From positions 1 to 64,000 of the forward strand of contig JAFVTQ010000004.1 of the NCBI GenBank assembly GCA_017503135.1: a stretch of DNA of 64,000 nucleotides. The letters run 5' to 3'. The stretch comes from Clostridia bacterium. GTDB lineage: Bacteria; Bacillota; Clostridia; Oscillospirales; Acutalibacteraceae. This document shows, in pieces, positions 30,511 to 48,046 of this stretch (the stretch's first letter is position 1; the number at the start of each line of letters is the position of its first letter). The notes under the pieces were generated by a model, which had not been told where the DNA came from, made no database searches, and saw only the letters and a program-made list of their open reading frames with translations. The translations under genes were made by a program, and so were the position numbers.

Positions 30511-30531
30511 AACTTAATATTTCACACTAAA

Positions 30532-30565
30532 AGCCGATGGGTGTAAAAATCCATCGGCTGTCTTT
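30532..30565. terminator. bidirectional terminator
   Basis: AGCCGATGG (30532-30540) and CCATCGGCT (30551-30559). It serves both the 29617 gene and the 3' end of the split deacetylase gene. Confidence 0.75.
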
Positions 30566-30803
30566 ATGTATTTTTATGTTGTCGTCCTGTGTGGTCAAGG
30601 TAAAAATTGTCCTTATATATTAAATCATTGACCGAAACAAACGAATAACCCTGTTTTGTGAGTTCTGTGAGAATTATATCAAGAGCAGGGGCTGTGTTCT
30701 CGACTCCGTTGTGAAAAAGCACAATCGAACCGTTCGTCACACGGCTTATAACCCTGTTAACAATCTCATCAACGGATAGCTTTTGGTAGTCAAGAGAATC
30801 AAC
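30564..30803 (-). pseudogene. 3' part of a split pdaB-like polysaccharide deacetylase gene
   Basis: Minus-strand frame from the junction core (GTTGAT, Val-Asp, at 30803-30798) to TAA at 30564. It encodes the C-terminal quarter of a NodB-domain deacetylase: VDSLDYQKLSVDEI, GSIVLFHNG with the catalytic LxH histidine, and GYSFVSVNDLIY. Upstream of the core the frame runs into element DNA. It joins in frame to the 5' part at 51340-51864, giving 252 residues, close to the length of PdaB. In the present form the gene cannot make a complete enzyme. Confidence 0.9.
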
Positions 30804-30832
30804 ACTAATAACAAAGGTAAAATTTATATATA
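30798..30832 (+). repeat. left junction (attL) with core and arm
   Basis: Core ATCAACA (30798-30804), 6-bp gap, then arm ACAAAGGTAAAA-TTTATATATA (30811-30832). The matching arm is inverted at the right end. Confidence 0.85.
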
Positions 30833-30873
30833 AAATTGTAACACGTATAGGTATATCAAAGTTGTTTGATAGG

Positions 30874-30901
30874 TTGAAGATTTTAATTAATATGATATAA
30901 T
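30874..30901 (+). promoter_or_regulatory. promoter of the Abi_2 gene
   Basis: TTGAAG (30874-30879), 16 bp, TATAAT (30896-30901). Confidence 0.65.
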
Positions 30902-30922
30902 AAATTAAGAGGTGAGTGGAGA

Positions 30923-31891
30923 ATGTCTGCACAAAAACAAAAGTTAAACGTGCTTCAACAAGTTGAGCATATGAAAAGTAAAGGGATTCGGTTTAATATT
31001 GAAGATGAAAAATATGCGACAGAATATCTATCGAACAACACGTATTATTTTAAACTGAAAGCATATGAAAAACTATATAATAAAAGTCCTACAGGAGAAA
31101 ATGCAGGAAAATATATCAATTTGGAGTTTGCATATCTGCGAGACTTAGCAACAATCGATTCCTTGTTAAGAAAGAAAATTTTATCAATTGCAATCGATAT
31201 TGAACATTATCTCAAAGTTAAATTACTAAATGATTTTAATTTGTCACATGAAGACGGCTATGAAATAATAAAAGCATTTAAAGAGATGGATCCAAACCAT
31301 TTTGAAAAAGATATTGCAAACAAACTTAATGGACGACTATGTAGTTCTTTGGTTGCTAAATATAAAGATGATTTTGCAATTTGGAATTTCATTGAAATAA
31401 TTGGATTTAATGATTTTCGTACATTATATGAACTTTTTTATATTAGAAACTCTGAAATGTTTTGTAATAAAAAAGATAACACGAACTTTAAAGGAGAATA
31501 TTACTATTTAATTAACCCTGTGCGTTTATTAAGAAATGCAGCTGCACATAACAATTGCTTGTTGATAGGACTTTCTCCCTCTTTGAATTTGCCATTGAAT
31601 TATAATGGTAATGTTCAATCATTTTTAGGAAAAAACGGAATAAAAAACACTTCTTTGAATAGACAAATGTCCAAACCAATAATACATGATTTTTGTGTTA
31701 TGTTGTATTTGTATTCTCTTATTGCACCCGAAAAGGCGCAGATACACACTTTTGAAGAGTTTAAAGAGCTTTTCGAAAATAGAGTATTTAGGAATATAAA
31801 TTATTATAAAAGCAATTCTCTAATTGAATCTTCTCTTGAATTTATGTATAAAGTAGTTTGCGTTTTTGAAAAAAATGTAAAAAAGAATTAA
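30923..31891 (+). CDS. Abi_2 (AbiD/AbiF-like) abortive infection protein
   Basis: A 322-residue member of the Abi_2 family, phage-defence proteins with a HEPN-type RNase fold. Typical are the start QKLNVLQQVEHMKSKGI, YFKLKAYEKLY near 50, and DLATIDSLLRKKILSIAIDIEH near 75-95. The HEPN motif R-x4-H is seen in RLLRNAAAHNN near residue 205. It probably arrests growth by RNA cleavage during infection. It is the first gene of the element, with its own promoter, and a probable small RNA follows at once. Ribosome site GTGGAGA. Confidence 0.88.
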   Translation: MSAQKQKLNVLQQVEHMKSKGIRFNIEDEKYATEYLSNNTYYFKLKAYEKLYNKSPTGENAGKYINLEFAYLRDLATIDSLLRKKILSIAIDIEHYLKVKLLNDFNLSHEDGYEIIKAFKEMDPNHFEKDIANKLNGRLCSSLVAKYKDDFAIWNFIEIIGFNDFRTLYELFYIRNSEMFCNKKDNTNFKGEYYYLINPVRLLRNAAAHNNCLLIGLSPSLNLPLNYNGNVQSFLGKNGIKNTSLNRQMSKPIIHDFCVMLYLYSLIAPEKAQIHTFEEFKELFENRVFRNINYYKSNSLIESSLEFMYKVVCVFEKNVKKN

Positions 31892-31910
31892 TAAAAAAAC
31901 AAATTTTCTA

Positions 31911-31939
31911 TTGACAATTTTACATAATATGCATATACT
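31911..31939 (+). promoter_or_regulatory. strong promoter just after the Abi_2 stop codon
   Basis: TTGACA (31911-31916), 17 bp, TATACT (31934-31939). No gene follows before the terminator at 31976-32006. Confidence 0.85.
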
Positions 31940-31945
31940 AATAAT

Positions 31946-32006
31946 GTAGCATAAAAATATTAGATTATTTTTACGGGATCGGTGCTTGCACTGGTCCTAT
32001 TTTTTT
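31946..32006 (+). ncRNA. probable ~60-nt RNA beside the Abi_2 gene
   Basis: Predicted from a near-consensus promoter and a terminator about 60 nt later. Hairpin 1 is TAAAAATA/TATTTTTA (31952-31959 with 31966-31973). Hairpin 2 is GGATCGGTG/CACTGGTCC (31976-31984 with 31989-31997, two G-T pairs), followed by TATTTTTTT. The G-T pairs favour the plus strand. A conserved 'AbiF' RNA motif near Abi_2-family genes has been described; this could be such an RNA and act as antitoxin or guide, but I have not compared it. Confidence 0.65.
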
Positions 32007-32109
32007 GTAGTTTTCAAGTAGTCAAAAGAAAGCTGTATTTGAAATTTATATAATAAAATGAAAAATATTTGCTATATAAATAAAATTTTTATTTGTGTAT
32101 AAGTCATGC

Positions 32110-32150
32110 TAAAAATAAAGTTGGATAGCATTATATTGTCCAACTTTAAT
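32110..32150 (-). terminator. terminator of the relaxase gene
   Basis: AAAGTTGGA (32117-32125) and TCCAACTTT (32139-32147), T-run on the minus strand. Confidence 0.75.
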
Positions 32151-32902
32151 TATTTTTGCAATTCAAAAGTCGGTGTTATATCTTCTTCTAATTGCCACAC
32201 TTTTAGGTTGTGCATATTGTGAGATAATTCGAACTTTAATTGTTCGTTCTCATTTTTCAATTTAGCATTGGTTTTGACGAGTTCATTATATTTCTTCGTC
32301 TGTTCTCGCAGTTGTGGGATTGTCAGATTCCCTTCTTTTGTAGCACCATTGATAATGCCGACATCAAAACCGAAATGATTATAAAAATAGTCACTTGCTT
32401 CTTTGTGCAACATTTTGAGTAGTTCGCGATTTACGACCTTAGCTGCACATACCTTGAGCTTGCCGTTGTGCTCAACAATAGGAGCAAATGCAAAGTGGAT
32501 ATGCGGTTGTCCCTTAATCTCTCCATCCTGAGATTCATCCAAATGCGCATAACAGGATATTAAAAATTCTTCTTTTCCACCACAAAACTTACTTAATAGA
32601 AATTTGTACCCCACTTCAAAGAATTCTTTAGCTCGTTCTTGTGGAAAATGTTCTGCTTTTGGTAGAGTTAGAACTATATCAACCATTGTATTAACATCAG
32701 CACGATTTAAAATTTTCAAGCCAGGTGTGGCTAAAATTTTTTTATATTTTGCAAACCCAGTTAGTTCATCATAGCCAAGTCTATAATTTCTTTCTTTTAA
32801 CTCGGGACTTATGTGATTCTGCGTTTTGTATATTTGTGGATGACGCTCATAGTGTTCTAACATATGACCGACAGCATTACGATTATATTTTTCTATATGC
32901 AT
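32150..32902 (-). CDS. MobV-type (Mob/Pre) relaxase, short
   Basis: A 250-residue mobilization protein. MobV relaxases nick oriT and lead the strand into the recipient. The metal-site motif is HLDE...QPHIHFAF (about residues 123-140), and VNRELLKMLHKEASDYF follows as in Pre/Mob proteins. The last ~50 residues form a coiled coil (KYNELVKTNAKLKNENEQLKF). It is shorter than plasmid Mob proteins (400+ residues) but keeps the core. Ribosome site GAAAGG. It makes the element mobilizable by helper conjugation. Confidence 0.85.
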   Translation of the reverse strand: MHIEKYNRNAVGHMLEHYERHPQIYKTQNHISPELKERNYRLGYDELTGFAKYKKILATPGLKILNRADVNTMVDIVLTLPKAEHFPQERAKEFFEVGYKFLLSKFCGGKEEFLISCYAHLDESQDGEIKGQPHIHFAFAPIVEHNGKLKVCAAKVVNRELLKMLHKEASDYFYNHFGFDVGIINGATKEGNLTIPQLREQTKKYNELVKTNAKLKNENEQLKFELSHNMHNLKVWQLEEDITPTFELQK

Positions 32903-33019
32903 AATATCAAACCTTTCTATATATTTTACTTAAAGTATGATATATAAGTTTAATACTCAAATTAATATATTTATGAATTATATTTATTAAAATAATATTT
33001 AAATCAATTTATTTTGATG

Positions 33020-33578
33020 TAGCAAGTTATATCAAAATCAAATGATTATTGATTAACTTGCCAGGAGGTCCTGGACCCTTTTGAAGTTGTTTTGGACGCA
33101 GTTTCCCCCAAGGTTCCCGAACTTGCCAACTCTATTGAGATAACCTCGCTCCTTACCCATGAGGTTTTACGACAAATTCTTCATAGGCGTCCAGCACCAC
33201 GTTTTCTTACTCTTTAGGTTCACGAGAACACCTGAAGTTTATTATACTCGTTGAGTAAGTACCTTAACATAGTCACCAGTTGGAATGACATCTCTTTTCT
33301 TTTATACTGTTTATAAGGTTAAAAACTAGAAAAATTCAGCATATTTGAGAACCGCCAACAATATGCTTAGCGTGTAAATTTAATTATCAATAAAGGCTTT
33401 ACGGACCACTTTTTACGAGCTATTTTCTCGGGGAACGGACTCTATCCCACGCTTTTTTTGTTGTACATAAAACTGTGAGCATATACACAGTAGCCTTTTA
33501 TTAAGTTGTGATATTCAAAGTATGATTGATTGTATTTTGAAAACAAGAAAAAAGGAGCGATTTTTCACTCCTTTTTTT
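33020..33578 (+). ncRNA. large structured RNA candidate with pseudoknot
   Basis: The 975-bp gap 32903-33877 has no gene. From 33060 to 33578 paired segments abound: 33094-33099 with 33187-33192, 33142-33147 with 33161-33166, 33206-33212 with 33253-33259, a 33212-33237 hairpin with a T-G pair, 33261-33266 with 33314-33319, 33338-33345 with 33360-33367, and 33472-33477 with 33486-33491. 33369-33374 with 33448-33453 crosses 33389-33398 with 33492-33502, a pseudoknot. A terminator (33551-33574 plus T7) ends it. The GCAAGTTA/TAACTTGC repeat (33022-33061) next to the relaxase gene could instead belong to oriT. RNA class not identified. Confidence 0.55.
33548..33578. terminator. terminator of the structured RNA
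   Basis: AAAGGAG (33551-33557) and CTCCTTT (33568-33574) followed by T-run; it could work in either direction. Between it and 33798 only one further hairpin, CGTTGG/CCAACG (about 33732-33759), is seen. Confidence 0.7.
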
Positions 33579-33798
33579 AAGCAGTTTTTCAACGGATTCA
33601 ATTTTGAATAACGATATAAGTTTCATAGTATATTTCCGTCGATTTAGGTGATGAAAATAGGTTTACATTATATAACTTGGTCTGTTATAAGATATTTCTA
33701 AAAAATTAAAACCATAAAAGCAAAAAGCTTCGTTGGTAATGCAGAATTGTTATGCTTCCAACGGGGCTCTTATTGTACTTAAAACTGGTGTACTCGAA

Positions 33799-33827
33799 TT
33801 GGCTAATTTATAATGATAAAATATAAA
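33799..33827 (+). promoter_or_regulatory. promoter of the invertase gene
   Basis: TTGGCT (33799-33804), 17 bp, TATAAA (33822-33827). Confidence 0.6.
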
Positions 33828-33841
33828 GACGGTATTTATAA

Positions 33842-34480
<639 letters not shown>

Positions 34481-34483
34481 TTA

Positions 34484-34509
34484 GTTCCAAAAGGTACGCT
34501 TTTTGAAAC
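34484..34509 (+). repeat. hix-like recombination site 1 (centre AC)
   Basis: 26 bp: half-sites GTTCCAAAAGGT and GCTTTTTGAAAC around central AC (34496-34497). The palindrome extends to 34479-34514. Half-sites share CAAAA(A/G)G(T/C) with site 2. Confidence 0.8.
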
Positions 34510-34525
34510 TAATTATATATTTTAT

Positions 34526-34554
34526 ATTCTATCATAATAAACCTTGATTTGCAA
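34526..34554 (-). promoter_or_regulatory. promoter inside the invertible segment, now facing away
   Basis: Minus strand: TTGCAA (34554-34549), 17 bp, TAGAAT (34531-34526). In the sequenced orientation it reads toward the invertase gene. Inversion would aim it at the 34671 operon. Confidence 0.65.
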
Positions 34555-34609
34555 CCCTTTTGGAGACATTTTAAAGTTTTTGGAAAGAAAAACTGATTTA
34601 CTTTATATC
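34549..34609 (+). promoter_or_regulatory. weaker plus-strand promoter candidates in the segment
   Basis: TTGCAA (34549-34554), 17 bp, TAAAGT (34572-34577), and TTGGAA (34580-34585) with TTATAT/TATATC (34603-34609). Both match consensus less well than the opposing promoter, so some basal expression in this orientation is possible. Confidence 0.4.
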
Positions 34610-34619
34610 TGTGGTTACA

Positions 34620-34645
34620 TTCTCAAAAGGTGTACTTTTTGAGAA
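34620..34645 (+). repeat. hix-like recombination site 2 (centre GT)
   Basis: 26 bp: TTCTCAAAAGGT, central GT (34632-34633), ACTTTTTGAGAA; the half-sites match in 11 of 12 positions. GT is the complement of the AC at site 1, so the sites are inverted relative to each other. The palindrome extends to 34615-34650. It lies in the leader just before the 34671 ribosome site. Confidence 0.82.
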
Positions 34646-34670
34646 TGTAAGATAAGCGGAGGTAATTTAA

Positions 34671-37600
34671 ATGAGGAAAAAACTAGTAGCATTGGTATTA
34701 TGTGTCTCTCTTCTTGTATCGACGTGTGGAATCCATTTTAATGTTGTTGCATTAACGGAGGCTCAACCTACTATCACAGTTGAAACTGTAGATGGTGAGC
34801 GTGGCAACGACGGAGTTATCGAGATTGATATTGTTGTTTCAAATAACCCTGGTATTGTTGGCGCATTTTTAACTGTCTCTTATCCTTCTGACAAACTGCA
34901 AGCTATCGAATTTTCTGACGGAGGTGTTTGGGACGGTTGGATGACTCAAGCATCGATGGTGAATAACAACCCTATGCAATTTACTTGGGAAGATGGCTTG
35001 GCGGAACAAAACAATACTGCCAACGGAACTATTCTAACATTGAAATTTAAGGTTAAAAATTTTGATGTTAATGACACTAATAAACTTGGGTTAGCAGATA
35101 TAACTGTTTCTTACAATTATGGTGAGATTTATAACTTTGATATGGATCCAGTTAATTTTAACATTGTAAACGGTGGTATTAATGTTATTTGTTCTCACAT
35201 CTATAGCAATTATGTAAGTAACGAAGATGCAACATGTGGTGTGGACGGCACCAAGACCGCTTTGTGTGATAAAGGTTGTGGAACAAAAGATACCAAAGTT
35301 GACACAGGTTCTGCTCTTCCTCATAAATTTACTAACTACGTATATCAAGACGATGAAACCTGCACCGCTAATGGCACTGAAAAGGCATTTTGCGATAATG
35401 GCTGTGGTGCTTCTGATATTAGAAGCAAGGATGGCACCAAGATCGACCACTCTTTTACCTCCTATACATATAACGATGATGCCACTTGTCAAGCAGATGG
35501 TACTAAAACGGCTTCCTGCGATTATGGTTGCGGTGCTACTGATGTAAAAATTGCATCTGGCACTAAGCTCGACCATAAGTATACTAATTATGTGAGCGAT
35601 GGAAATGCCGAATGTGAAAAAGATGGTACTAAAACTGCTTTCTGTGATTATGGTTGTGGTACCAAGGATACTAAGACTGATGATGGAAGTGCGTTAGAAC
35701 ACAAGTATACTAACTACATTTATAACAATGATGCTAAATGTGGTGTTGATGGAACTGAAACCGCTTCTTGTGATAATGGCTGTGGAAAAACACATACCCG
35801 CACTAAGATTGGTACTGCTTTAACACATAAATATACAAATTATGTGAGTGACGGCAATGCAACTTGTACAGCAGATGGCACAAAAACTGCGCTTTGCGAC
35901 TATGGTTGTGGCGAGACTGATACTATAGCTGATATTGGTAGTAAGATTTCTCATAAATACACCACATATGTAAGTAATAACGATGCTACATGCACAGCAG
36001 ATGGCACAAAAACTGCTTCTTGCGATTATGGTTGCGGAATTACGGAAACTATAACCGATACAGGTAGCAAGATTCCTCACAAATTCACATCTTTTGAAAG
36101 CAACCACGATGCTAAGTGTGGTGTGGATGGTACAAAAACCGCTTTCTGTGATTATGGCTGTAATACTCCAAGTACTGTATCTGATGTAGGCAGTGCATTA
36201 AGCCATAAATATACCAATTATATTTATAACAACGATGCTACCTACTTCGCAGACGGTACAGAAACAGCATCTTGTGATCATAATTGTGGAAAAACTGATA
36301 CTCGTGAAAAAACTGGAACTAAACTCGTAGATACAATTCTTCCAGTTGGTTCAATCGATATTGAGCAAAATTCTTGGAAAACACTCCTTAATACAATTAC
36401 TTTCGGTTTATTCTTTGATGCAAAGTTTGATGTTACAATTACCGCTGTTGATAATGAAACTGGAGTTAAGAGTGTTGAGTATTATAAGACTTCAACCGCT
36501 GTTGATGACATTACTGACATTACCGTATGGACAAGCGGAAATTCTTTCAGTGTAGATAGTGAAGGTGAATATATCATCTATGCTAAGATTACAGACAACG
36601 CTGACAATGTTTTGTATATCAGTACTGATGGATTGGTAATTGATACAACTAAGCCTATAATCGAAGGCATTACAAACGGAAAGACATACTGCGTAGCTCA
36701 GACATTTACTGTTACAGATGCTAATCTTGATTATGTAAAAGTGAATAATGCAATAACTACTAATTTCACTCTTACAAATGATGAATATACAATTGTAGCA
36801 GTTGATAAAGCTGGAAACAGTACAACTTTCATAGTTACTGTTTATGAAGGTCATGACTTTGCAAATTATATAAGCAATAATGATGCTACTTGCACTGCAG
36901 ATGGTTCAGAAACTGCCACATGCTCACATGGCTGTGGTCAGACTGATACTCGTATTGATGTAGATAGCAAAATTCCTCATAAGTACACAACTTATGTAAG
37001 CAATAATGATGCTACATGTACAGCAGATGGAACAAAGACAGCTTATTGTGATTATAATTGTGGTGCAATTGATACTTTAACTGATGTAGGTAGCCAAATT
37101 CCTCATAAGTACACAACTTATGTAAGTAATAATGATGCTACATGTACAGCAGATGGAACAAAAACGGCTTCTTGCGATTATGGTTGTGGTGCAATTGACA
37201 CCGTAGCTGATATAGGCACTCAAATTCCTCATAAATATACAACTTACACAAGTAACAATGATGCTAAGTGTGGCATTGATGGTACTAAGACTGCTTCTTG
37301 TGACCACGGTTGCGGTAAGACAGACACTGTTGCAGATACAGGTTCTGCTCTCAATCACAAATACACAAACTATGTAAGTAATGGCGATGCTAAGTGTGGC
37401 ATTGATGGTACCAAGACTGCTTCTTGTGACCACGGTTGCGGTAAGACAGACACTGTTGCAGACACAGGTTCTGCTCTCAATCATAAATACACAAACTATG
37501 TAAGTAATGGCGATGCTAAGTGTGGCATTGATGGTACTAAGACTGCTTCTTGTGACCATGGTTGCGGTAAGACAGACACTGTTGCAGACACAGGTTCTGC

Positions 37601-38498
37601 TCTCGCTCATAAGTACACCAATTATGTAAGTAATAATGATGCTACTTGCCAAGCAGACGGTACGGAAACCGCTACATGTGACCATGGTTGTGGAACTAAA
37701 GATACCAAGGCTGACGTTGGCTCTAAGGCGGACCACAAGTACATCACTTACGCAAGCAATAATGATGCAACTTGTGAAGCAGATGGAACTGAAACCGCTT
37801 CTTGTGACTTCGGATGCGGAACGAAAGACACTCGTACTGTTGTCGGTAGTAAACTTGACCACAAGTGGAAACTCACTAATACAGATGATGCAACTTGTAC
37901 TGAAGATGGTACAGAGTATTACATCTGTGAAAATTACGAGGAACACACTAAAACCGAAACAATCACTGCTCCTGGACATAAATATGGTGAGTGGGTAGAA
38001 ACTAAAGCTCCTACTGACAAGATTGCTGGTGAGAAACGTCGCGATTGTGAGAATTGTGACCATTTCGAAACTGCTGCAATTCCTGTAATTCTTTATGAAA
38101 TAACTTATGGTGCAAATAGCAAATGGCAGCAAGGTTCAAACAATGGTCTCACTGTCAAATCAAGTGGTGACTTTGAAGACTTTGTAAGTATTGAAATTGA
38201 TGGCCAAGTAGTAGATACTAAAAACTATACCGCAGTTGCAGGTAGCACTGTAGTTACCCTTAAAGCAGACTATCTTAAAACTCTCTCTATTGGTGAACAT
38301 AACCTTAGAATTGTTTATAAAGACGGAAGTGCATCAACTCAATTTGAAATAAAGGCCGCCAATAAAACTGACGACCAGATTAAGATTCCTCAGACTGGTA
38401 ATACAACTATCCTTACTCTGTGGGTAATTGCTGCTTTTGTTTCAATGTCTCTCATTATTGTTTACGTTTTCATAAAGCGTAAAGAAAGAGCAAGATAA
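34671..38498 (+). CDS. wall-anchored cohesin protein with 42-residue Cys repeats
   Basis: A 1,275-residue surface protein. Signal peptide 1-28; cohesin-like domain about 33-165 (SNNPGIVGAFLTVSYPSDKL, FKVKNFDV, FNIVNGGINV). Nine 42-residue repeats follow (HKYTNYVSNNDATC..DGTKTASCDYGCG), then an Ig-like region about 560-725 and nine more repeats. An X2-like domain lies about 1140-1235 (YGANSKWQQGSNNGLTV). The end is IPQTG, a membrane helix and KRKERAR, a sortase-type anchor. It is expected to display one cohesin at the cell wall and dock dockerin proteins encoded downstream. First gene after the invertible promoter; ribosome site GCGGAGG. Confidence 0.88.
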   Translation: MRKKLVALVLCVSLLVSTCGIHFNVVALTEAQPTITVETVDGERGNDGVIEIDIVVSNNPGIVGAFLTVSYPSDKLQAIEFSDGGVWDGWMTQASMVNNNPMQFTWEDGLAEQNNTANGTILTLKFKVKNFDVNDTNKLGLADITVSYNYGEIYNFDMDPVNFNIVNGGINVICSHIYSNYVSNEDATCGVDGTKTALCDKGCGTKDTKVDTGSALPHKFTNYVYQDDETCTANGTEKAFCDNGCGASDIRSKDGTKIDHSFTSYTYNDDATCQADGTKTASCDYGCGATDVKIASGTKLDHKYTNYVSDGNAECEKDGTKTAFCDYGCGTKDTKTDDGSALEHKYTNYIYNNDAKCGVDGTETASCDNGCGKTHTRTKIGTALTHKYTNYVSDGNATCTADGTKTALCDYGCGETDTIADIGSKISHKYTTYVSNNDATCTADGTKTASCDYGCGITETITDTGSKIPHKFTSFESNHDAKCGVDGTKTAFCDYGCNTPSTVSDVGSALSHKYTNYIYNNDATYFADGTETASCDHNCGKTDTREKTGTKLVDTILPVGSIDIEQNSWKTLLNTITFGLFFDAKFDVTITAVDNETGVKSVEYYKTSTAVDDITDITVWTSGNSFSVDSEGEYIIYAKITDNADNVLYISTDGLVIDTTKPIIEGITNGKTYCVAQTFTVTDANLDYVKVNNAITTNFTLTNDEYTIVAVDKAGNSTTFIVTVYEGHDFANYISNNDATCTADGSETATCSHGCGQTDTRIDVDSKIPHKYTTYVSNNDATCTADGTKTAYCDYNCGAIDTLTDVGSQIPHKYTTYVSNNDATCTADGTKTASCDYGCGAIDTVADIGTQIPHKYTTYTSNNDAKCGIDGTKTASCDHGCGKTDTVADTGSALNHKYTNYVSNGDAKCGIDGTKTASCDHGCGKTDTVADTGSALNHKYTNYVSNGDAKCGIDGTKTASCDHGCGKTDTVADTGSALAHKYTNYVSNNDATCQADGTETATCDHGCGTKDTKADVGSKADHKYITYASNNDATCEADGTETASCDFGCGTKDTRTVVGSKLDHKWKLTNTDDATCTEDGTEYYICENYEEHTKTETITAPGHKYGEWVETKAPTDKIAGEKRRDCENCDHFETAAIPVILYEITYGANSKWQQGSNNGLTVKSSGDFEDFVSIEIDGQVVDTKNYTAVAGSTVVTLKADYLKTLSIGEHNLRIVYKDGSASTQFEIKAANKTDDQIKIPQTGNTTILTLWVIAAFVSMSLIIVYVFIKRKERAR

Positions 38499-38505
38499 TC
38501 ATTGA

Positions 38506-38542
38506 AATCAGCCCACATCAAGAAAATTGTTGTGGGCTGATT
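38506..38542 (+). other. intercistronic hairpin without T-run
   Basis: A 12-bp stem AATCAGCCCACA (38506-38517) with TGTGGGCTGATT (38531-38542). No U-tract follows, so it is more likely an RNA processing or stability element than a terminator. Confidence 0.6.
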
Positions 38543-38571
38543 GTGCTTTAAGGAGGGGTTGGTGATGGAAA

Positions 38572-39405
38572 ATGAAATCGGAATTATATCACTATTGTTC
38601 TTTTGATGCATTTTTAGCCATTCTTAAGAATAAAACAATTAAATTTTCGGATATAACTAAATCAAATGATTTTGCTGAAATCAATCTGCTATGGAACAAA
38701 TATGCTGAATGTATTGAGAAAACATGTTCTAACCCAATTGCACATACGCTGTTAAACCACGAAATCAAGAACCAAATGGAACAAACAGATTTTTTGGTTG
38801 CGTGTTTTACGAGTGAAGCAGATATGTTACATATGTGGTCTTGCTATGCAAACGAAGGAGTTGCTATTGGCTTTGACCAACAAAAAATGCGTGAATGGTG
38901 TAACAGAATTTCGATATATGATAACGCTGTTACATTAAACGATAATACAAATAACAGTAGTGAATTTGTTAGATTTGATGAAGTTGCCTATTTTGGTAAA
39001 GACAAATTAGAAACTCACATTTTGGATCGATGTAAAGGAATTGAATTTGTTGATGAGCGTTTTGAAGAAATCTTTAAAAATGCCCCATTTTCAAAAACAG
39101 ACTTTTGGAAGATTGAAAACGAATGGCGAATATCTATTAGTTTGATTTATTCGACCCAATTATTGCAATTAGAAATTCCTAAGGAGATACAAATACCGAG
39201 GAAACTTGAAATGTTTGTGGAATCTAAAAATGGATTTCAAAACTGTATTTGCTGTTATGTTCCATTTGAACAAGAAATGATTACTAGCATTAGACTTGCT
39301 CCTAATTGTAGGGTAAGCGAAAAGGAAATAGAAAAAATATTGTTGATTAATAATTTTGATCCAAATAAGATTGATATTCGTCAATCCACGGGAACATTGA
39401 GATAG
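38572..39405 (+). CDS. DUF2971-family protein
   Basis: A 277-residue soluble protein. DUF2971 marks are LYHYCSFDAFLAILKNKTIKFSDI at the N-terminus (written in parts: LYHYCSFDAFLAIL, NKTIKFSDI) and FTSEADMLHMWSCYANEGVAIGFD near 85-105. The family's function is unknown; members often sit in defence or mobile loci. The ribosome site AAGGAGG lies 15 nt before this ATG but 7-8 nt before an overlapping out-of-frame ATG (38564) that encodes only 13 codons. Translation may be coupled through that mini-frame. It lies between two surface-protein genes in the same operon. Confidence 0.75.
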   Translation: MKSELYHYCSFDAFLAILKNKTIKFSDITKSNDFAEINLLWNKYAECIEKTCSNPIAHTLLNHEIKNQMEQTDFLVACFTSEADMLHMWSCYANEGVAIGFDQQKMREWCNRISIYDNAVTLNDNTNNSSEFVRFDEVAYFGKDKLETHILDRCKGIEFVDERFEEIFKNAPFSKTDFWKIENEWRISISLIYSTQLLQLEIPKEIQIPRKLEMFVESKNGFQNCICCYVPFEQEMITSIRLAPNCRVSEKEIEKILLINNFDPNKIDIRQSTGTLR

Positions 39406-39423
39406 TAAGGAGGAGCCAGAAAA

Positions 39424-42400
39424 ATGAGAAAACAATGGAGAAGATTGGTAAGCCTGGTCTTGTGCTTTACTCTTGTAATGAGCATGAATACTAACGTTAT
39501 TGCGCTTACAACCGATTGGGATATTAGAATCCCCGAATTAGAAGAAAAGGCATCTGAGGTTAGACTTGATGCCGAAGTACAGGCTGTCATAGACAAAATT
39601 GATGCAATTGGTACTGTTGACTACAATGATGTATCCCTTGCAAAGATCTTGGAGGCAGAAACTGCATATGCCAAGCTGACTGCTGCGCAGAAGGAGCAGG
39701 TTTCTAATTATGGCACCTTGTTCGCGGCACGTAATGCATATGATGTGCTTGCAGCAGATCATGAAGATACTTCTGCGCTTACCGTAACAGATAGTGGAAC
39801 GATTAATTCTACTGTTAAATGGTATGTTTACAGTAACGGCTTGCTTGAGATTGCTGGTACAGGCTCTGTACCTACTTATACAACTAGTAGCACTGCTCCT
39901 TGGTACAACTATGCCAGTTCTATCAACAGGATTCTTGTAAGAAGTACAATTACTGGTATCGGTGGTTTTGCCTTCTATGGTTGTAATAGCGTTAAGGAAA
40001 TCTCACTTCCCTTTGTAGGAAAGAGTAGATCGGCAACCGGCTATGAGGGAGCGTTTGGTTATATTTTTGGATATATAACTAGCTCTAACAATTCTTCTAA
40101 TGGCGCTACATATACATATGTGTTTGATATTGATGGTAATGAAAAATCAGTCTCACAAACAAGCAATGATACTAAAACTTTTGTAGATGGTCTTTATGGA
40201 TACACAAAAAGCGGTGGTTACAACTATTATGGTTTTAATGATTCTAGCAGTACAACACAATCTTACGCACAGAACAAACATTGGTATACATCTTACTCTT
40301 ACACATATAGTGGCAGTAATTATTTGAGATCATATGTGTTTGCATTGCCAACTGCTCTAAAAACAGTAAATATTACTGATGCAAAAACAATTCAAGATGG
40401 AGCATTTAATAACTGCAAGTATATTACCAACGTGAATTTGAATGATGGAATTGAATCAATTGGTGCATGTGCCTTTAAAAACGCTATAGCACTTAAAGAT
40501 TTTACTATTCCTGAGACTGTCTCGCAAATTGGAAAATCAGCATTCTACAATAACAGTGCATTAACCGAAATTTATATTCCTGACTCAGTTGAAACTATTT
40601 CAGGTTATGCATTTTATAATTGTAGCGCAGTTACTAAATGCGTGATTGGCAAAAACACAACAGAAATTGGCACTTATGCATTCTATAATAATGCTTCGCT
40701 TTTGAAATTAAGTATTCCTGAAAAGGTTTCAAGCATAGGTTCATATGCATTTAGTAAAAACACAACAATTACTGAAATTAATATTCCTGATTCTGTTACA
40801 AGTATTGGTCAATATGCTTTTTCTGAAAACACGAAGGTAACGAAATTACATATTGGTTCCGGGTTGCGGACAATATCATCGTACACCTTTAGTGGTAATA
40901 GCGCCTTAACAAAAGTTGTTGTTCCAGATACTGTCACTACGATTGATAGTTTTGCCTTCTATGGTTGCAACAGCATAAAGGAAATCACTCTTCCTTTTGT
41001 AGGAAAGAGCAGAACGGCAACCGGCTATGAGGGAGCGTTTGGTTATATTTTTGGATATATAACTAGCTCTAACAATTCTTCTAATGGCACTACATATACA
41101 TATGTGTTTGATATTGATGGTAATGAAAAATCAGTCTCACAAACAAGCAATGATACTAAAACTTTTGTAGATGGTCTTTATGGATACACAACAAGCGGTA
41201 GTTTCAACTATTATGGTTTTAATGATTCTAGCAGTAAAACAAAATCTTACGCACAGAACAAACATTGGTATACTTCGTACTCATACTATAGTAATGGTTC
41301 ATATTATCTCAGATCATATGTGTTTGAATTGCCAACTGCTCTAAAAACAGTAAATATTACTGATGCAAAAACAATTCAAGATGGAGCATTTAATAACTGT
41401 AAAAATATCACAAATATAACATTGAATGATAAAATTGAAACTGTAGGGGCATATGCTTTTAGGAACGTTCCATGGTACGTTAACCAACAGGCAACTTTTG
41501 TCATTGCTGGCGATGGTGTTCTTATTAAGTACAACGGAACTTCCAGTGGAGTAACACTTCCCGAAAATGTAAAGTATATTGGCGGAACAGTATTCCAGGA
41601 TAAAACCACTATCTCTGAGGTTAATATTCATAAGAATATTGTTGGTATTGGCCGTGAAGCATTTGATGGTTGTACCAACCTCACTAGCTTGGTTATTCCG
41701 AAGACTGTAACAAGCATTGGTACAAATGCTATTCCTAGCATATGTACCATCCATGTATATCGACCTTCTGCCGGTTATGATTACCGTTCTACAAACCGTG
41801 TAATACTAAATGATTCCTATACAACCGGTAACGATACCTTCTATTACGTAGTGAATGATGACGGCTGCGTAGAGATTATTGGTTGTGTTACTACAAGTAC
41901 TGAACTTACTGTTCCTGTTGAAATTGAAGGAAAAGTAGTTAATAAGATCGGCGACTATGGATTCTCAGAGTGTAAAACTATTAATAGCATCACCATCCCC
42001 TCTAACATTAAGAGCATTGGTAAGTATGCATTTAATAAGTGTACTGGCCTTATTAACGCTACCATTCCTACTACGGTTGACAGCGTTGGCGATTACGCAT
42101 TCTACTACTGTACCGGTCTTGTAAACGTAACAATTTCTGAGGGAGTAGAGAGCATCGGTGAGGGCGCATTCTATAACTGTACTTCTCTTGTAGAAGCTGT
42201 TGTGCCTGATACTGCAATTAAGGTTGGTTCTTATGCCTTCTACAACTGTACTTCTATGACCACTGCGACCATCGGTATCTCTGCTGATGCAATTGGTGAT
42301 TACACTTTCTACAATTGCGAAAAGCTCGACACCATTGTTATTGGTATCAGTGTTGAAAGCATTGGCGATTATGCATTCTACAATTGTGCTCTTGAAAAGG

Positions 42401-45165
42401 TTTCTGTTCCCGCTACAGTTACTACAATTGGAGATTATGCATTTGCTTCTAACGATGCAATGACTCGCGCAACCTTAAGAAAGAACCTCTTAACGATCGG
42501 TGAAGGTGCATTCCAAAATTGTGGTGTACTTGCAACGGTTTCTATTCCTTCCTCTGTCACAGAGATTGGAAAGGCAGCATTTGAGAATTGTGCAAGTATT
42601 ACTACTATTACGGTTCCTGTTGGAGTTATTGTAATTAATGATCTCGTTTTCTCTGGCTGTGAGAAGCTGGCAACAATAAAACTGAATGGAGAAGTAACTT
42701 CTGTTGGAATTTCTGCATTCTACAATTGTGCGTTTGCTAATATTGCTCTTCCTGAAACAGTAGAAGTAATTGACGCATCGGCGTTCAGAAAATGTGTGAA
42801 CTTGACTGAAATCACAATTCCTGATGCCACCAAGAAAATCGGAGATTCCGCGTTCATTGATTGTACAGCACTGGCGACTGTTTCTATACCGGACGATGTT
42901 ACTAGCGTTGGCAATGGCGTGTTCTTCTATAATAATGATTTGGCCGTGGAAGTTCGTTATCTTACCGGAACGGTTGCTGCAGGTTTGTTAGAGAAGCAAG
43001 GCGTATGCCATGTAAAACTTGACGAAAACATCACTGCTATTGGCGATAGAGCTTTTGCCCAGTGCTACACGTTGAGCGACATTACATATGGAGCTGAAGC
43101 CCCTGTTGCTGGCAACTACTCATTCTCTAAGAATATTGCAACCATTGGCAAAGAAACATTTGTGGATGATGTTCTGCTTAAGAACCTGATTGTACCGGAT
43201 AGCATTCAAAGTATCGGATCTGATTCCATCTACAACCCGATTGTTACCGAATACAACTGTAAAGATGTAACGGCAACTTTCTATTATGTGAATGGTTCCA
43301 TCGTAGCTAACATCTTGAATGGTCAGGATTATACTCATATTGTTGTAAATGACAACATTCATACATTGGGCGATTCTGCATTTGCTAATTCTGATCAGCT
43401 CATCACGATATCACTGCCTGATACTATTAGTGCAGTAGGTACCGATGTGTTCAAGGCATCCAGTGGAAAACTCACAGCTACTATTCGTGGTGTGGATGGA
43501 ATGATTGATTCATTCGTCTATGATAGTAAGATGGGTGGAGTACAGTACCTTGTTATTGACGAAAATGTTGATACTATCGGTACATATGCTTTTGCAAATT
43601 CCTCTACTATTAATGGTGTTGTTATCAACGATACTGACTTGATTGACGATTACGCCTTTTATAAGGCCGCAGCACTTAACTATGTTGAGATTGGTGCTAC
43701 CGATACAATCGATGCATACGCTTTTGCAGAGTGTCTAGCTCTGAAGAATGTAGAAATTGATAAGGTAAGAGCCATTAACGATTATGCTTTCTTCAACTGT
43801 ATCGCAATGATTGATATCTATATTGATAGTGAGTCTGGTTTGGAGCATATAGGAGAGCATACCTTTGAAGAATGCAAACTGATGCCTAAAATGATTTTTC
43901 CTGCAACAGTGCGAAACATCGGAGCATATGCATTTTATAACTGCAACAGCATGACTTATATCAATATTCCTGATGGTGTACCTGCAATCAATGACTATAC
44001 GTTCTTTGGTTGTGCTTCTCTTAAGGAAATGCTTCTGCCTAATAGTGTTATCACTGTTGGCGACTGGGCTTTCTATGGTTGTGTTGTTGTTAAGAACATG
44101 ACTTTAGGAAATCAGACAAAGAGCATTGGCGAATATGCATTCTATAACTGCAACCAGATTGCAGTATTGGAAATCCCTGAGACTGTAACAGAAATTGGGG
44201 ACTATGCATTCAGATCCTGCAGTAGCATTACTGAGCTTCACATTCCTGACAGTGTTGTAAGTCTTGGTGATTGCGTATTCTACAGTTGTACTGGTTTGGA
44301 ACAGGTTGAGTTTGGAACTGGCATTACAGCAATCGGTGATAGAGTATTCTACGCTTGCGTAGAGCTCGATAAGGTTGTTTTTAATTCACCTATTACCGAA
44401 ATCCACGACCTCGCATTCTATGGCGCCGAAGATGCAACACTTTACGCTTTTGAGGATGAGTACGTTGAGACATATTGTAATGACTTTGGTCTTATGTACT
44501 ACAACTTAAGTAGTGATTTTACAATGACGATTACTGTTCCTTTCAAAACCGAGTACAACGAATATGAGGATTTGGATTTGACTGGCTTGGCATTGGATTT
44601 GACCTATACAAACGGATCTGAAAGAACTATTAAAACCGGGTATACAATTAGCGGTTACGATCCAAGCATTCTTGGCACCCAGACTATTACCGTAACTTAT
44701 AACGGTGAGAGTGCAACATTCGATGTTAATGTTGTTGCCAAAACAGTAAGCTTTATTTCTATTACTGCTGGTGCACCTGCCGATGTCATTGTCGGCGAAG
44801 AACTCGATTGTTCTGCAATGATAGTAAAGGTTACATTCACAGATGGAACCAGTGTAGATATTACTGAAGGATATACTATAACAGGTTATGACGCTGAAAC
44901 AATTGGTGAACAGACACTTACGATTACCTACCGTGAGAGCAGTCAAGAAATGGTTGTTACCGTTAAGGATTATGTACGTGGTGACACCAATGGTGACGGA
45001 CTTGTAACAATGAAGGACGTTACACGTCTTGTAAATTACCTTAACGATGATTCGATTGATGTTATCGACAAAGCACTCGATGTGAATGGTGATGGACTTG
45101 TTACTATCAAGGACGTTACAAGACTTACTGAGTATCTTGAAGATAACACAGTAGAAATCTTTTAA
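39424..45165 (+). CDS. giant LRR_5 (BspA-like) surface protein with dockerin
   Basis: A 1,913-residue exported protein. Signal peptide about 1-27 (LVSLVLCFTLVMSM). From about 160 to 1690 there are BspA-type leucine-rich repeats (pattern IGDYAFYNC..L..V.IP..V), an adhesin fold. Two bacterial Ig-like Big_3 domains follow (about 1695-1850). The end is a canonical type I dockerin with calcium loops DTNGDGLVTMKD and DVNGDGLVTIKD (about 1852-1910). Two ~150-residue blocks (DNA 39963-40418 and 40949-41402) are nearly identical and carry a non-LRR insert (ATGYEGAFGYIFGYITSSNN). It probably binds host, food or partner surfaces and docks into a cohesin. Ribosome site AAGGAGGAG. Confidence 0.9.
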   Translation: MRKQWRRLVSLVLCFTLVMSMNTNVIALTTDWDIRIPELEEKASEVRLDAEVQAVIDKIDAIGTVDYNDVSLAKILEAETAYAKLTAAQKEQVSNYGTLFAARNAYDVLAADHEDTSALTVTDSGTINSTVKWYVYSNGLLEIAGTGSVPTYTTSSTAPWYNYASSINRILVRSTITGIGGFAFYGCNSVKEISLPFVGKSRSATGYEGAFGYIFGYITSSNNSSNGATYTYVFDIDGNEKSVSQTSNDTKTFVDGLYGYTKSGGYNYYGFNDSSSTTQSYAQNKHWYTSYSYTYSGSNYLRSYVFALPTALKTVNITDAKTIQDGAFNNCKYITNVNLNDGIESIGACAFKNAIALKDFTIPETVSQIGKSAFYNNSALTEIYIPDSVETISGYAFYNCSAVTKCVIGKNTTEIGTYAFYNNASLLKLSIPEKVSSIGSYAFSKNTTITEINIPDSVTSIGQYAFSENTKVTKLHIGSGLRTISSYTFSGNSALTKVVVPDTVTTIDSFAFYGCNSIKEITLPFVGKSRTATGYEGAFGYIFGYITSSNNSSNGTTYTYVFDIDGNEKSVSQTSNDTKTFVDGLYGYTTSGSFNYYGFNDSSSKTKSYAQNKHWYTSYSYYSNGSYYLRSYVFELPTALKTVNITDAKTIQDGAFNNCKNITNITLNDKIETVGAYAFRNVPWYVNQQATFVIAGDGVLIKYNGTSSGVTLPENVKYIGGTVFQDKTTISEVNIHKNIVGIGREAFDGCTNLTSLVIPKTVTSIGTNAIPSICTIHVYRPSAGYDYRSTNRVILNDSYTTGNDTFYYVVNDDGCVEIIGCVTTSTELTVPVEIEGKVVNKIGDYGFSECKTINSITIPSNIKSIGKYAFNKCTGLINATIPTTVDSVGDYAFYYCTGLVNVTISEGVESIGEGAFYNCTSLVEAVVPDTAIKVGSYAFYNCTSMTTATIGISADAIGDYTFYNCEKLDTIVIGISVESIGDYAFYNCALEKVSVPATVTTIGDYAFASNDAMTRATLRKNLLTIGEGAFQNCGVLATVSIPSSVTEIGKAAFENCASITTITVPVGVIVINDLVFSGCEKLATIKLNGEVTSVGISAFYNCAFANIALPETVEVIDASAFRKCVNLTEITIPDATKKIGDSAFIDCTALATVSIPDDVTSVGNGVFFYNNDLAVEVRYLTGTVAAGLLEKQGVCHVKLDENITAIGDRAFAQCYTLSDITYGAEAPVAGNYSFSKNIATIGKETFVDDVLLKNLIVPDSIQSIGSDSIYNPIVTEYNCKDVTATFYYVNGSIVANILNGQDYTHIVVNDNIHTLGDSAFANSDQLITISLPDTISAVGTDVFKASSGKLTATIRGVDGMIDSFVYDSKMGGVQYLVIDENVDTIGTYAFANSSTINGVVINDTDLIDDYAFYKAAALNYVEIGATDTIDAYAFAECLALKNVEIDKVRAINDYAFFNCIAMIDIYIDSESGLEHIGEHTFEECKLMPKMIFPATVRNIGAYAFYNCNSMTYINIPDGVPAINDYTFFGCASLKEMLLPNSVITVGDWAFYGCVVVKNMTLGNQTKSIGEYAFYNCNQIAVLEIPETVTEIGDYAFRSCSSITELHIPDSVVSLGDCVFYSCTGLEQVEFGTGITAIGDRVFYACVELDKVVFNSPITEIHDLAFYGAEDATLYAFEDEYVETYCNDFGLMYYNLSSDFTMTITVPFKTEYNEYEDLDLTGLALDLTYTNGSERTIKTGYTISGYDPSILGTQTITVTYNGESATFDVNVVAKTVSFISITAGAPADVIVGEELDCSAMIVKVTFTDGTSVDITEGYTITGYDAETIGEQTLTITYRESSQEMVVTVKDYVRGDTNGDGLVTMKDVTRLVNYLNDDSIDVIDKALDVNGDGLVTIKDVTRLTEYLEDNTVEIF

Positions 45166-45184
45166 TTAGCGCGGGGTGATGATG

Positions 45185-48046
45185 ATGAAAAGAATTTTTG
45201 CTTTACTTTTGTCGATCACACTTTTGTTTTCGGCAGTTGTCACCCCTGTCAGTGCTGAGAGCATTAACAATTTTACCGTTAAAGTAAGCGATGCTACTGC
45301 CACAGCTGGCGATAGCCAAGTGGCAGTGGATATCATGCTTGAAGATAACCCCGGTATCGCCGGTTTCAGTTTCTGTGTAAACTATGATACTGAAAAACTC
45401 GTGTTGGTTGAATCTAAAATCAATATTGAGGATGGTTACAAAGTTGTTGCTCAGCCGACAGGCTATGGCGTTAATTTAGCATGGACCAGTCCTTCTGGAT
45501 ATTCGGAAGACGGGAAAATTGCTACATTGTATTTTAATGTACCTAAAGACCTTACTTCAAGTGAGGCAAATATTGATATTGTGTATCGTGATGGCTATGA
45601 CAGCTTTTATGATTCTCACGAACATGATATTGTTGTTCAATCTGTCAGTGGAACAGTTACTATTGCGGCTTTACAGGAAACTAACGGACCGTCCGTCAAT
45701 ATAGGCGGTGTGTCGGTGAACTTTGGAGCTACAGATATTGTTGTTCCCATTACGATTAATAACAATCCCGGATTCTCGGGCTTTAGTTTCTGCATAAACT
45801 ACGATACAACTCGTTTAGTACTTGACAGTACAAATATTCTTATTGATGGTGGTTATAAAGTAATTGGCCATCCTGAAGGATACGGAGTGAATATCGCTTG
45901 GACAAGTACAGAAACTTATACTCAAGATGGAACAATTGCAGAATTACATTTTTCGTTAAAGGACAATGCAAACTCTGGAAAGGCATATATTAACGTTGTT
46001 TTCCGTGAGGGTTATGATAGCTTTTATAGTTTTGACAACGGTTATGAGCAAGATATCATATTTGACTCGTTTAATGGATATATTGATGTAAATAATCATA
46101 ATTTTGGTGAGTGGGTTATTACTACTCCTGCTACTTGTACTTCCACTGGTTTGAAGACAAGAACTTGTTTAGATTGTTCAAAAACAGAAACTGCTGTAAT
46201 TCTTAAGGTTCCCCATGAATATGAGACTGTAATAACTCCACCGACGTGTATAGCACAGGGATATACAACACATACTTGTAAAACATGTTCCGATTACTAT
46301 GTAGATTCTTATACAGATATGGTAGATCACACACCAGGCAATTGGGAGCAGAGTATTGCCCCTGAGTGTGCGGTGAAGGGAGAAGAAATTCAAAAGTGTT
46401 CTGTTTGTAAAACAACAATCAACACAAGACCTGTTGATGAAACTGGACATAGTTTTGATAATTGGTATGTTGTATCTATAGCTAAATTTAATGAAGATGG
46501 CCAAGAACGTAGAGATTGTAAAAATTGCAATCACTTCGAAACAAAGCGCATTCCTAAGCTTAGTGAAGGCCATGTATGTGATTTTACTGGTGCCGAAGAA
46601 ATAATTGAAGATGCCACTTGTACGGCTAATGGAAGCAAGAAGATTTATTGCTCTGAAACAGAATGTGGTAATTTTGAGATTGTGCAGATAATTGCGGCGG
46701 GTCATAAATTTGGTGATTGGTACACAACCATAGAGCCTAAGTTTGATGAGGATGGAGAGCAACGTAGAGATTGTAATAATTGCGATTATTACGAAACGAA
46801 TAGGTTGCCAAAACTTAGTGAAAGCCACGTGTGCTCTTATACTGGTAGTGAAGAAATAGTTGAAGAAGCTACCTGCACTCAAAGTGGTTCTAAGAAGGTG
46901 TATTGTTCTCATCCTTCTTGCAACAAGTTCACAACAGTAAGCGTCGATCCTACCGGACACACCAGTGGTACATGGGAGGTGGAAAAATCAGCTACATGTA
47001 CAGAAACAGGTACCGAAGTAATTAAATGCACCACTTGTAAAACCGTACTGCAGTCTCGCAGTTTTGATGCTACAGGTCATAGTTGGGATAATGGTGTGAT
47101 CACCAAAAAGGCAGATTGCTTGAACGAGGGCGAGAAAACCTTTACTTGTTCTACTTGTTCTGCAAAGGATGTGAAAACCATTCCTGCCGGCGGCCATACT
47201 GAAGGTGAATGGCAAGTTGTAAATCCTGCAAATTGTACTGAAACTGGAAGAAAAGAACTTCATTGCACAGTTTGTCAGCAACTTTTGGCAATTGACGCTA
47301 TTGCAGCTACTGGGCATCAATACGGTAGCTGGATTGTAACAACACAACCTACTGCAACTACTGCTGGTGAAAAAAGTCGTGAATGTTCTGTATGCCATGA
47401 CATTCAGACTTCTGCTATTGATCCAACCGGTAATCTTCCTAAAATTGTTGTATCAAGCACCAAAGGTAGTGTTGGTAGCACAGTAAAAGTTACCATTTCC
47501 TTGCAAGATAATCCTGGTATTATCACTGCAAATTTGAAGGTAGGATATGATGGAACTAAACTGCAACTTGTTTCTGCCGAGGATACTGGTTTGTTGAACG
47601 ATTCGATTTTTTCAAATGATTTAACGCTTAATCCGTATGTATTGTGTTGGGATGATGCACTTGCTTTATCTAACAACTCGTCAAACGGTGCAATTGTGAC
47701 ACTGACATTCAAGGTCTTACAGAGTGATGCATGTAAAACCGATATTGTTGTTACGTTTGAAGAAAATGAAATTTATGACATGAATCTTGATCCTGTTTTC
47801 TTTGAAACACAAAACGGCCAAGTTGAAATAGTAGACTTCATATTCGGTGACGTTGATGGTGATGGCGTATGCAACATTCGAGATGCAACAATTCTTCGTA
47901 GATATGTTGCTAAATGGGAGGGCGTGACAGTAAATGAATTAGCAGCTGATGTGAATAACGATGGAGTCGTTAATATCAGAGATGCAACAATTCTACGCCG
48001 TCATGTTGCTAAGTGGGGCGGATATGAAGAATTACCGTATGTGTGA
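45185..48046 (+). CDS. scaffoldin-like protein: three cohesins plus dockerin
   Basis: A 953-residue exported protein. Signal peptide ends PVSA. Cohesin-like domains lie at about 28-155 and 168-300 (NNPGFSGFSFCINYDTTRL, closely alike) and at about 745-880 (DNPGIITANLKVGYDGTKL, closer to the 34671 cohesin). Between them are Cys-rich TC..G..T..C..C repeats. The C-terminus is a dockerin (GDVDGDGVCNIRD and ADVNNDGVVNIRD). Three cohesins plus one dockerin is the plan of an adaptor scaffold. Of four consecutive possible starts (one GTG, three ATG) I use ATG 45185, spaced best from GCGGGGTG. Last gene of the operon. Confidence 0.88.
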   Translation: MKRIFALLLSITLLFSAVVTPVSAESINNFTVKVSDATATAGDSQVAVDIMLEDNPGIAGFSFCVNYDTEKLVLVESKINIEDGYKVVAQPTGYGVNLAWTSPSGYSEDGKIATLYFNVPKDLTSSEANIDIVYRDGYDSFYDSHEHDIVVQSVSGTVTIAALQETNGPSVNIGGVSVNFGATDIVVPITINNNPGFSGFSFCINYDTTRLVLDSTNILIDGGYKVIGHPEGYGVNIAWTSTETYTQDGTIAELHFSLKDNANSGKAYINVVFREGYDSFYSFDNGYEQDIIFDSFNGYIDVNNHNFGEWVITTPATCTSTGLKTRTCLDCSKTETAVILKVPHEYETVITPPTCIAQGYTTHTCKTCSDYYVDSYTDMVDHTPGNWEQSIAPECAVKGEEIQKCSVCKTTINTRPVDETGHSFDNWYVVSIAKFNEDGQERRDCKNCNHFETKRIPKLSEGHVCDFTGAEEIIEDATCTANGSKKIYCSETECGNFEIVQIIAAGHKFGDWYTTIEPKFDEDGEQRRDCNNCDYYETNRLPKLSESHVCSYTGSEEIVEEATCTQSGSKKVYCSHPSCNKFTTVSVDPTGHTSGTWEVEKSATCTETGTEVIKCTTCKTVLQSRSFDATGHSWDNGVITKKADCLNEGEKTFTCSTCSAKDVKTIPAGGHTEGEWQVVNPANCTETGRKELHCTVCQQLLAIDAIAATGHQYGSWIVTTQPTATTAGEKSRECSVCHDIQTSAIDPTGNLPKIVVSSTKGSVGSTVKVTISLQDNPGIITANLKVGYDGTKLQLVSAEDTGLLNDSIFSNDLTLNPYVLCWDDALALSNNSSNGAIVTLTFKVLQSDACKTDIVVTFEENEIYDMNLDPVFFETQNGQVEIVDFIFGDVDGDGVCNIRDATILRRYVAKWEGVTVNELAADVNNDGVVNIRDATILRRHVAKWGGYEELPYV

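Follow-up and report, generated by a model that had tools for sequence, protein, structure and literature searches.

In the window (the whole analysed stretch of 64,000 nucleotides from a Clostridia bacterium, contig JAFVTQ010000004.1), a recombinase gene is followed by two palindromic sites, an RBS and the gene of a 1275-aa protein. This order raises the question of whether the palindromes are crossover sites flanking an invertible promoter or only hairpins formed in RNA. The contig is part of a 1.2 Mb genome that is 75% complete. Comparison with related loci makes it very probable that the locus is a real serine-recombinase promoter switch, constituting a self-contained phase-variation cassette.

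The recombinase and the two palindromic sites

The recombinase gene (33881..34480, plus strand) has an ATG start and encodes a small serine recombinase of 199 aa, presumed to be an invertase. The reading frame stops at 34480, so the gene ends at site 1, as had been predicted. The protein matched Pfam Resolvase (8.1e-28) and the PHROG DNA invertase family (2e-48), and in the alignment with Sin it retained VRVSS and IDRLGRN, which we take to be the catalytic motifs of a serine recombinase. These three results place a serine recombinase catalytic domain beside the sites. The closest solved structure was Sin (2r0q, E = 1.4e-29), whose entry title reads Tn552 DNA-invertase bin3. The gamma-delta resolvase formed a second-tier match (6e-20), above 4m6f and 3uj3, both entered as DNA-invertase and presumably Gin, which matched at about 4e-12 (best 3.6e-12) and 6e-12, respectively. 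Sin thus ranked above the Hin/Gin proteins among the solved relatives, and the match to the NCBIfam Mpi master-invertase model was weak (41.6 bits, far under the 272-bit cut-off). The original prediction of a Hin/Pin-type enzyme held as far as a serine recombinase next to the sites is concerned (Pfam, PHROG) but not for the type, as the nearest solved relative was Sin and not Gin; judged by sequence similarity, the recombinase is closer to the former.

Both 26-bp palindromes anticipated for this locus were found, and their layout recalls that of hix sites (12 + 2 + 12). Site 1, with its extended palindromic arms, spans 34478..34515 and is terminator-like in the present orientation. Its core, CAAAAGGT-AC-GCTTTTTG, lies at 34488-34505 and the AC centre at 34496..34497 is the predicted crossover point. 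Site 2, likewise extended by palindromic arms, spans 34615..34650 just 5' of the RBS of the presumed target gene, with the core CAAAAGGT-GT-ACTTTTTG at 34624-34641 and the predicted crossover point at the GT centre (34632..34633). The distance from core start to core start was 136 bp, and the segment between the complementary centres, the putative invertible segment, covers 34498..34631. The window therefore holds two dyad sites whose centres, AC and GT, match in inverted orientation.

The shared core, searched with up to 3 mismatches, gave 3 matches in the window (site 2 being matched on both strands) against a mean of 0.56 in shuffled sequences. A loose version of the core pattern was found at one more place of the same genome (C1:84237), where it was unpaired, and a control pattern was found six times, which indicates that the half-site motif alone is not rare and that the close pair is. 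A genome-wide repeat family was rejected on account of this single other, unpaired place. Both sites folded far better than shuffled sequence (z from -5.9 to -7.1).

Central dinucleotides and spacing of the sites in related switches

The comparison comprised 240 records, i.e., 110 related recombinases, 80 viral ones and 50 from two wider genome searches, with some places duplicated. The region downstream of each recombinase was scanned on the true match strand with a site-pair score blind to the centre. A site pair was detected in 84 records, and 76 of them, mostly from Clostridia and including the window, were kept as non-redundant. Isolates that carry the cassette include Anaeromassilibacillus sp. 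An200, Faecalicatena faecalis and Eubacterium plexicaudatum. Those dropped were L046 (the same place as L007), the duplicates L124, L208, L215, L216 and L218, L071 (second site weak, contig end) and L230 (extra site copy). The other 156 records had no recognisable sites in the scanned place, some of them because the contig ends there, so the sites are a feature of one part of this recombinase family. A phage context was rejected: among the 80 viral records, site pairs were seen in L129 and L124 alone, and L124 duplicates L049.

The central dinucleotides were complementary in 75 of the 76 switches, in six combinations: GT/AC (46 loci), AC/GT (16), AT/AT (5, fitting both orientations), AG/CT (5), AA/TT (2) and CT/AG (1). 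Random re-pairing of the second centres gave on average 32 matches, with a maximum of 46 in 20,000 trials. The sole non-matching locus, L231, was a mis-picked pair, in which the reading frame overruns site 1 and the second site had been paired with a weak chance match; the true pair is GT/AC, 136 bp apart, and the count was kept as computed with L231 scored as non-matching. Strand exchange by serine recombinases requires matching 2-bp overhangs, and the covariation of the centres is what inverted crossover sites would require. In a Sin-type resolvase arrangement the res sites are directly repeated; the centres found here indicate inverted crossover sites. Thus, the complementarity of the centres was confirmed in the window and recurs among its relatives, and the check proposed in the original prediction, i.e., a search for related loci with non-matching centres, had the opposite outcome.

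The spacing of the cores ranged from 114 to 257 bp, with bands near 125, 136, 147, 157, 166, 176 and 188 bp. The vector strength at a period of 10.5 bp was 0.64 for the 76 loci and 0.60 after removal of the commonest band (n = 43), and the maximum over periods of 10-11 bp was reached by none of 3,000 jittered sets. The spacing of the sites is helically phased. Short loops joining two sites need the correct twist, so the phasing would fit sites that meet in space. An additional core was observed in L262 (G590:C1, located before the same kind of gene as in L045, by eye). It has the centre AC, lies about 26 bp before the last site and is directly oriented to site 1, which could permit deletion or an alternative inversion.

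These data bear on the proposal that the palindromes are only RNA hairpins or terminators and take no part in recombination. Such a role would suit the very stable folds, the T-rich flank at site 1 and the terminator-like character of site 1 in both directions in many relatives, but it does not explain why, in 75 of 76 loci, the loop dinucleotides of the two hairpins complement each other, why the spacing is helically phased or why the place behind a serine recombinase gene is constant. It was rejected because of the complementary centres and is considered highly improbable.

Promoter direction and hairpin stability

The segment between the sites carries a promoter, recognised by sequence match as TTGCAA-17-TAGAAT (34526..34554, minus strand), which now points left into site 1 and could face a flanking gene. 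The leftward promoter had been predicted together with only weaker ones in the direction of the surface genes. The first part was confirmed, but a rightward candidate, TTGAAA-16-TATTCT (34503-34530), ties with it on a simple consensus score (9 of 12). This candidate shares bases with site 1 and lies away from the conserved position; the leftward promoter was favoured because of its 17-nt spacing, the TG before the -10 hexamer and a position common to the relatives. In many of these, the -10 hexamer is located about 20-21 nt inside site 1, with the promoter facing back to the recombinase gene.

Under a fixed rule (-10 at 18-23 nt from a core), passed by shuffled segments at 7.8% per side, the promoter pointed left, away from the target gene, in 52 of the 76 loci and right, toward it, in nine; none was placed in 15, and one of the 76 loci qualifies on both sides. 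The window falls in the left class and is presumed, from its sequence, to be in the OFF state, so the OFF reading made in the original prediction fits the promoter position conserved among relatives.

In the proposed mechanism, the serine recombinase would bind both 26-bp sites, cut at the 2-bp centres and invert what lies between. As sequenced (OFF), the promoter is aimed at the 3' end of the recombinase gene and the RNA would begin at about the edge of site 1, soon meeting the site 1 hairpin and a T-tract, so that early termination is expected. After flipping (ON), it would be aimed at site 2 and the surface gene. As strand exchange swaps the outer arms of the sites, the long hairpins would fall apart and only a short one would be left before the RBS. 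We infer that inversion takes place in this strain, that this enzyme performs it, that transcription stops at site 1 and that the surface gene is the one switched.

The fate of the hairpins was followed by folding each site as sequenced and after in silico exchange of the arms. In the window, the outer arms pair within each site but differ between sites 1 and 2, so inversion would swap the arms and break the hairpins. Among the related switches, the sequenced form gave more stable hairpins than the flipped one in 46 of the 52 left loci (the other six being less stable as sequenced), in 10 of the 15 loci with unplaced promoters and in one of the nine right loci, which are few and in some cases low-scoring. 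The exception among the right loci was L250, slightly more stable as sequenced. The bias differed between the left and right classes (Mann-Whitney p = 1.5e-5), the stricter promoter rule giving this clear contrast having been chosen after two correlations that were weak and not significant over the first 53 loci, one a plain ranking of promoter bias against hairpin bias (rho = 0.21, p = 0.13), the other using an unplaced promoter score (rho = 0.13, p = 0.36). In L099, the clearest right-facing case, the arms match at 16 of 20 positions between the sites and at 6 of 20 within them, and the flipped form would fold far better. The sequences themselves show the sites, their complementary centres, the promoter position and, in the comparison of species, that hairpin stability goes with the direction of the promoter.

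In 53 loci, the pairing of the site 1 arms continues past the core for eight positions, with base pairs that vary; position 2, for example, was paired in 39 of the 53 against 16 expected. The DNA to the left of site 1 is T-rich on the minus strand, reaching 77% at one position, partly owing to the gene end located there, and to the right of site 2 there was no T richness beyond the first few positions. In the window, seven T in a row (34471..34477, minus strand) follow the site 1 hairpin and overlap the 3' end of the recombinase gene, and the relatives are T-enriched at the same place.

The extended arms might instead serve the DNA reaction, as longer protein-binding dyads or cruciforms, with RNA hairpins as a by-product. 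In favour of this reading, both sites show sequence conservation at arm positions 1 and 3, beside the core, where the enzyme may make contact. At positions 5-8 of site 1, by contrast, the bases vary and yet pair (30-34 of 53 against 14-18 expected), those of site 2 pair less (17-28 against 13-21 expected) and the T-rich flank accompanies site 1 only, so a role confined to the DNA reaction appears doubtful.

Terminator-like behaviour was scored across the loci with a simple rule. On the leftward strand of site 1, 41 of the 52 left loci passed as sequenced and 22 flipped, with 19 losing and none gaining the structure. On the rightward strand of site 1, the would-be end of the recombinase mRNA, the rule was passed by 30/52 as sequenced and 9/52 flipped, and at site 2 toward the gene by 7/52 and 5/52, respectively. 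The nine right loci showed no contrast on the leftward strand of site 1 (3/9 as sequenced, 4/9 flipped). In the window, a looser script of our own reported a candidate terminator on the minus strand of site 1, where a stem containing G+C precedes a run of T (10 pairs, 3 of them G-C), and a stricter scan by its own criteria found none; termination in this strain is therefore putative. The backward RNA of the window, if started 7 nt after the -10 hexamer, would have its 5' end at the foot of the hairpin and run into the seven T after it. The first 75 nt of the flipped leader would form a short hairpin only (-7.9 kcal/mol), against -19.3 kcal/mol for a similar stretch in the present state.

The stability bias between left and right loci suggests that site 1 in the OFF state resembles an intrinsic terminator. 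The original prediction named the palindromic arms as a rival explanation of the sites. The extended arms are real, but the contrast between 46/52 left and 1/9 right loci makes them appear a part of the switch and not an alternative to it. A second layer of the switch, in which inversion assembles and disassembles hairpins, is likely. We lean slightly towards a further reading, namely that the crossover sites act as split terminators: inversion would turn the promoter and rebuild the hairpins from swapped arms, the product of recombination would set where transcription ends, and the whole would be a modular cassette with varying neighbour genes, present in Clostridia and in certain other gut bacteria. 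If the hairpin coupling is true, a single inversion alters RNA structure along with the direction of the promoter. This could account for a promoter facing the invertase gene without interfering with it.

Another possibility is a genuine switch that acts chiefly on the recombinase, by antisense RNA or opposed transcription, the downstream gene being incidental. The promoter does face the 3' end of the recombinase gene in 52 of the 61 loci with a placed promoter, and the downstream gene of the window differs from that of its nearest relative, L036. Against this, the backward RNA would soon be cut short by a terminator-like site 1, the forward state would set the promoter shortly before a gene with an RBS, and, as a raw count, 25 of 43 downstream frames (from the first 53 loci) start with a hydrophobic stretch. 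Regulation mainly of the recombinase is thus regarded as quite unlikely, and the promoter switch acting on the downstream gene remains the preferred reading.

Downstream genes, orientation and known systems

The presumed target (34671..38498, plus strand) encodes, by translation, a secreted repeat protein of 1275 aa. Its C-terminus carries IPQTG, a hydrophobic stretch and a basic tail and looks, by eye, like a sortase anchor; a CBM_X2 match in this protein was below its cut-off. The possible rest of the operon (38572..48046, plus strand; co-transcription putative) encodes proteins of 277 aa, 1913 aa (BspA-type LRR/Big_3/dockerin) and 956 aa (cohesin/dockerin), as seen from their domains. The large BspA-type LRR/dockerin and cohesin/dockerin proteins (39424-48046) are encoded after the presumed target on the same strand, separated by short gaps. 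The products of the BspA-type, cohesin and dockerin genes possibly form a phase-variable cellulosome-like surface complex.

A cassette character of the locus is suggested by L036, whose recombinase shares 88% protein identity with that of the window. When positions 30001-40000 of the window were compared with L036 at the DNA level (E to 1e-5), the alignment covered only 33879 to 34648, a stretch that opens with the recombinase gene and closes with site 2. The two loci differ in their first downstream frames. On the other side of the recombinase gene, a 250-aa protein is encoded at 32150-32902 (minus strand), with no Pfam or PHROG match, which by eye we take to resemble plasmid Mob/Pre relaxases. 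Together with the nearby Abi_2 gene at 30923-31891, it suggests a mobile neighbourhood. In L048, the frame after site 2 looks, by eye, like a fragment of a second recombinase.

It had been proposed to look for both orientations in related genomes. Both promoter directions were found among species (52 and 9 of 76), but no single strain among the loci compared had both. The same or near-identical switches compared by eye (L049/L124 and L045/L262) had the same orientation in each pair. Where a genome holds two almost identical recombinase genes (L254/L255, L256/L257), no site pair was seen by eye in the 420 bases after each.

Contig ends offered a further indication. Among the 240 records, 31 contigs break off no more than 1,350 nt past the stop codon of the recombinase, and five of them (L050, L051, L073, L084 and L211) end 0-6 nt past a core (binomial estimate p = 5e-5 for an 18-nt target per record). 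Such ends are expected where two arrangements of one flank diverge in the assembly graph, and hairpins hindering sequencing could contribute to them. The other side was sought in four of these genomes, in two of which a reversed control pattern matched as often and in the other two never. For L050, from the isolate An200, a single further core match was present; here too the contig breaks off one base beyond the core, and the centre matches. The other match in the L051 genome, with a matching centre, lies beside a run of N. In the L073 genome, the match is 130 bases away from the start of a contig and seems to retain the segment, oriented backward; in the L084 genome, it has a different centre and is probably unrelated. 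We infer that the An200, L051 and L073 matches are the other sides of the switches. In the An200 genome, a contig that breaks off one base beyond a switch core (L119, end of contig C88) has a gene for a TnpB-like protein as the next one.

Invertible promoters are known to drive variation at the surface of gut bacteria. The comparison made here defines a compact cassette of a serine recombinase and sites with a consensus that can be recognised, which lets switches and their current state be read from genomes. A literature search by title or abstract start gave no description of this recombinase-switch family or of hairpin-forming crossover sites, although supplements may hold the motif, and a search for spellings of the core sequence found no paper.

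The locus resembles the Hin/Gin-type invertase switches, such as Salmonella hin, in having a serine recombinase gene, inverted dyad sites (12 + 2 + 12) with a 2-bp centre and a promoter that is flipped. It differs in the segment of about 136 bp, the recombinase gene located outside it, the helically phased spacing and a recombinase much nearer to Sin than to Gin. Serine invertases like Hin are distinguished by a Fis-bound enhancer, according to the available text of PMC4513852. The staphylococcal Sin and Tn552 Bin3 recombinases are the closest by solved structure (2r0q, E = 1.4e-29). Sin is described in the available text of PMC2764113 as a resolvase that relies on accessory site II and on a protein that bends DNA; unlike there, the sites of the present locus are inverted with a promoter between them. 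Gut-bacterial invertons share with it the short promoter segment, the inverted flanking sites and the proximity to surface genes. Tyrosine-type recombinases and site-specific integrases are named near such invertons in PMC11892184, in the main text of which neither 'serine' nor 'hairpin' occurs. As far as these texts go, the described invertons are linked to tyrosine recombinases, and no description of a serine-recombinase cassette with hairpin coupling was found. In the Clostridioides difficile flagellar switch, the orientation of a 154-bp segment decides on transcription termination in the leader, with RecV and Rho taking part (available text of PMC7446863). Orientation tied to transcription termination would be common to both systems; unlike in C. 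difficile with its RecV and Rho, the terminator-like hairpin would here form from the crossover site itself.
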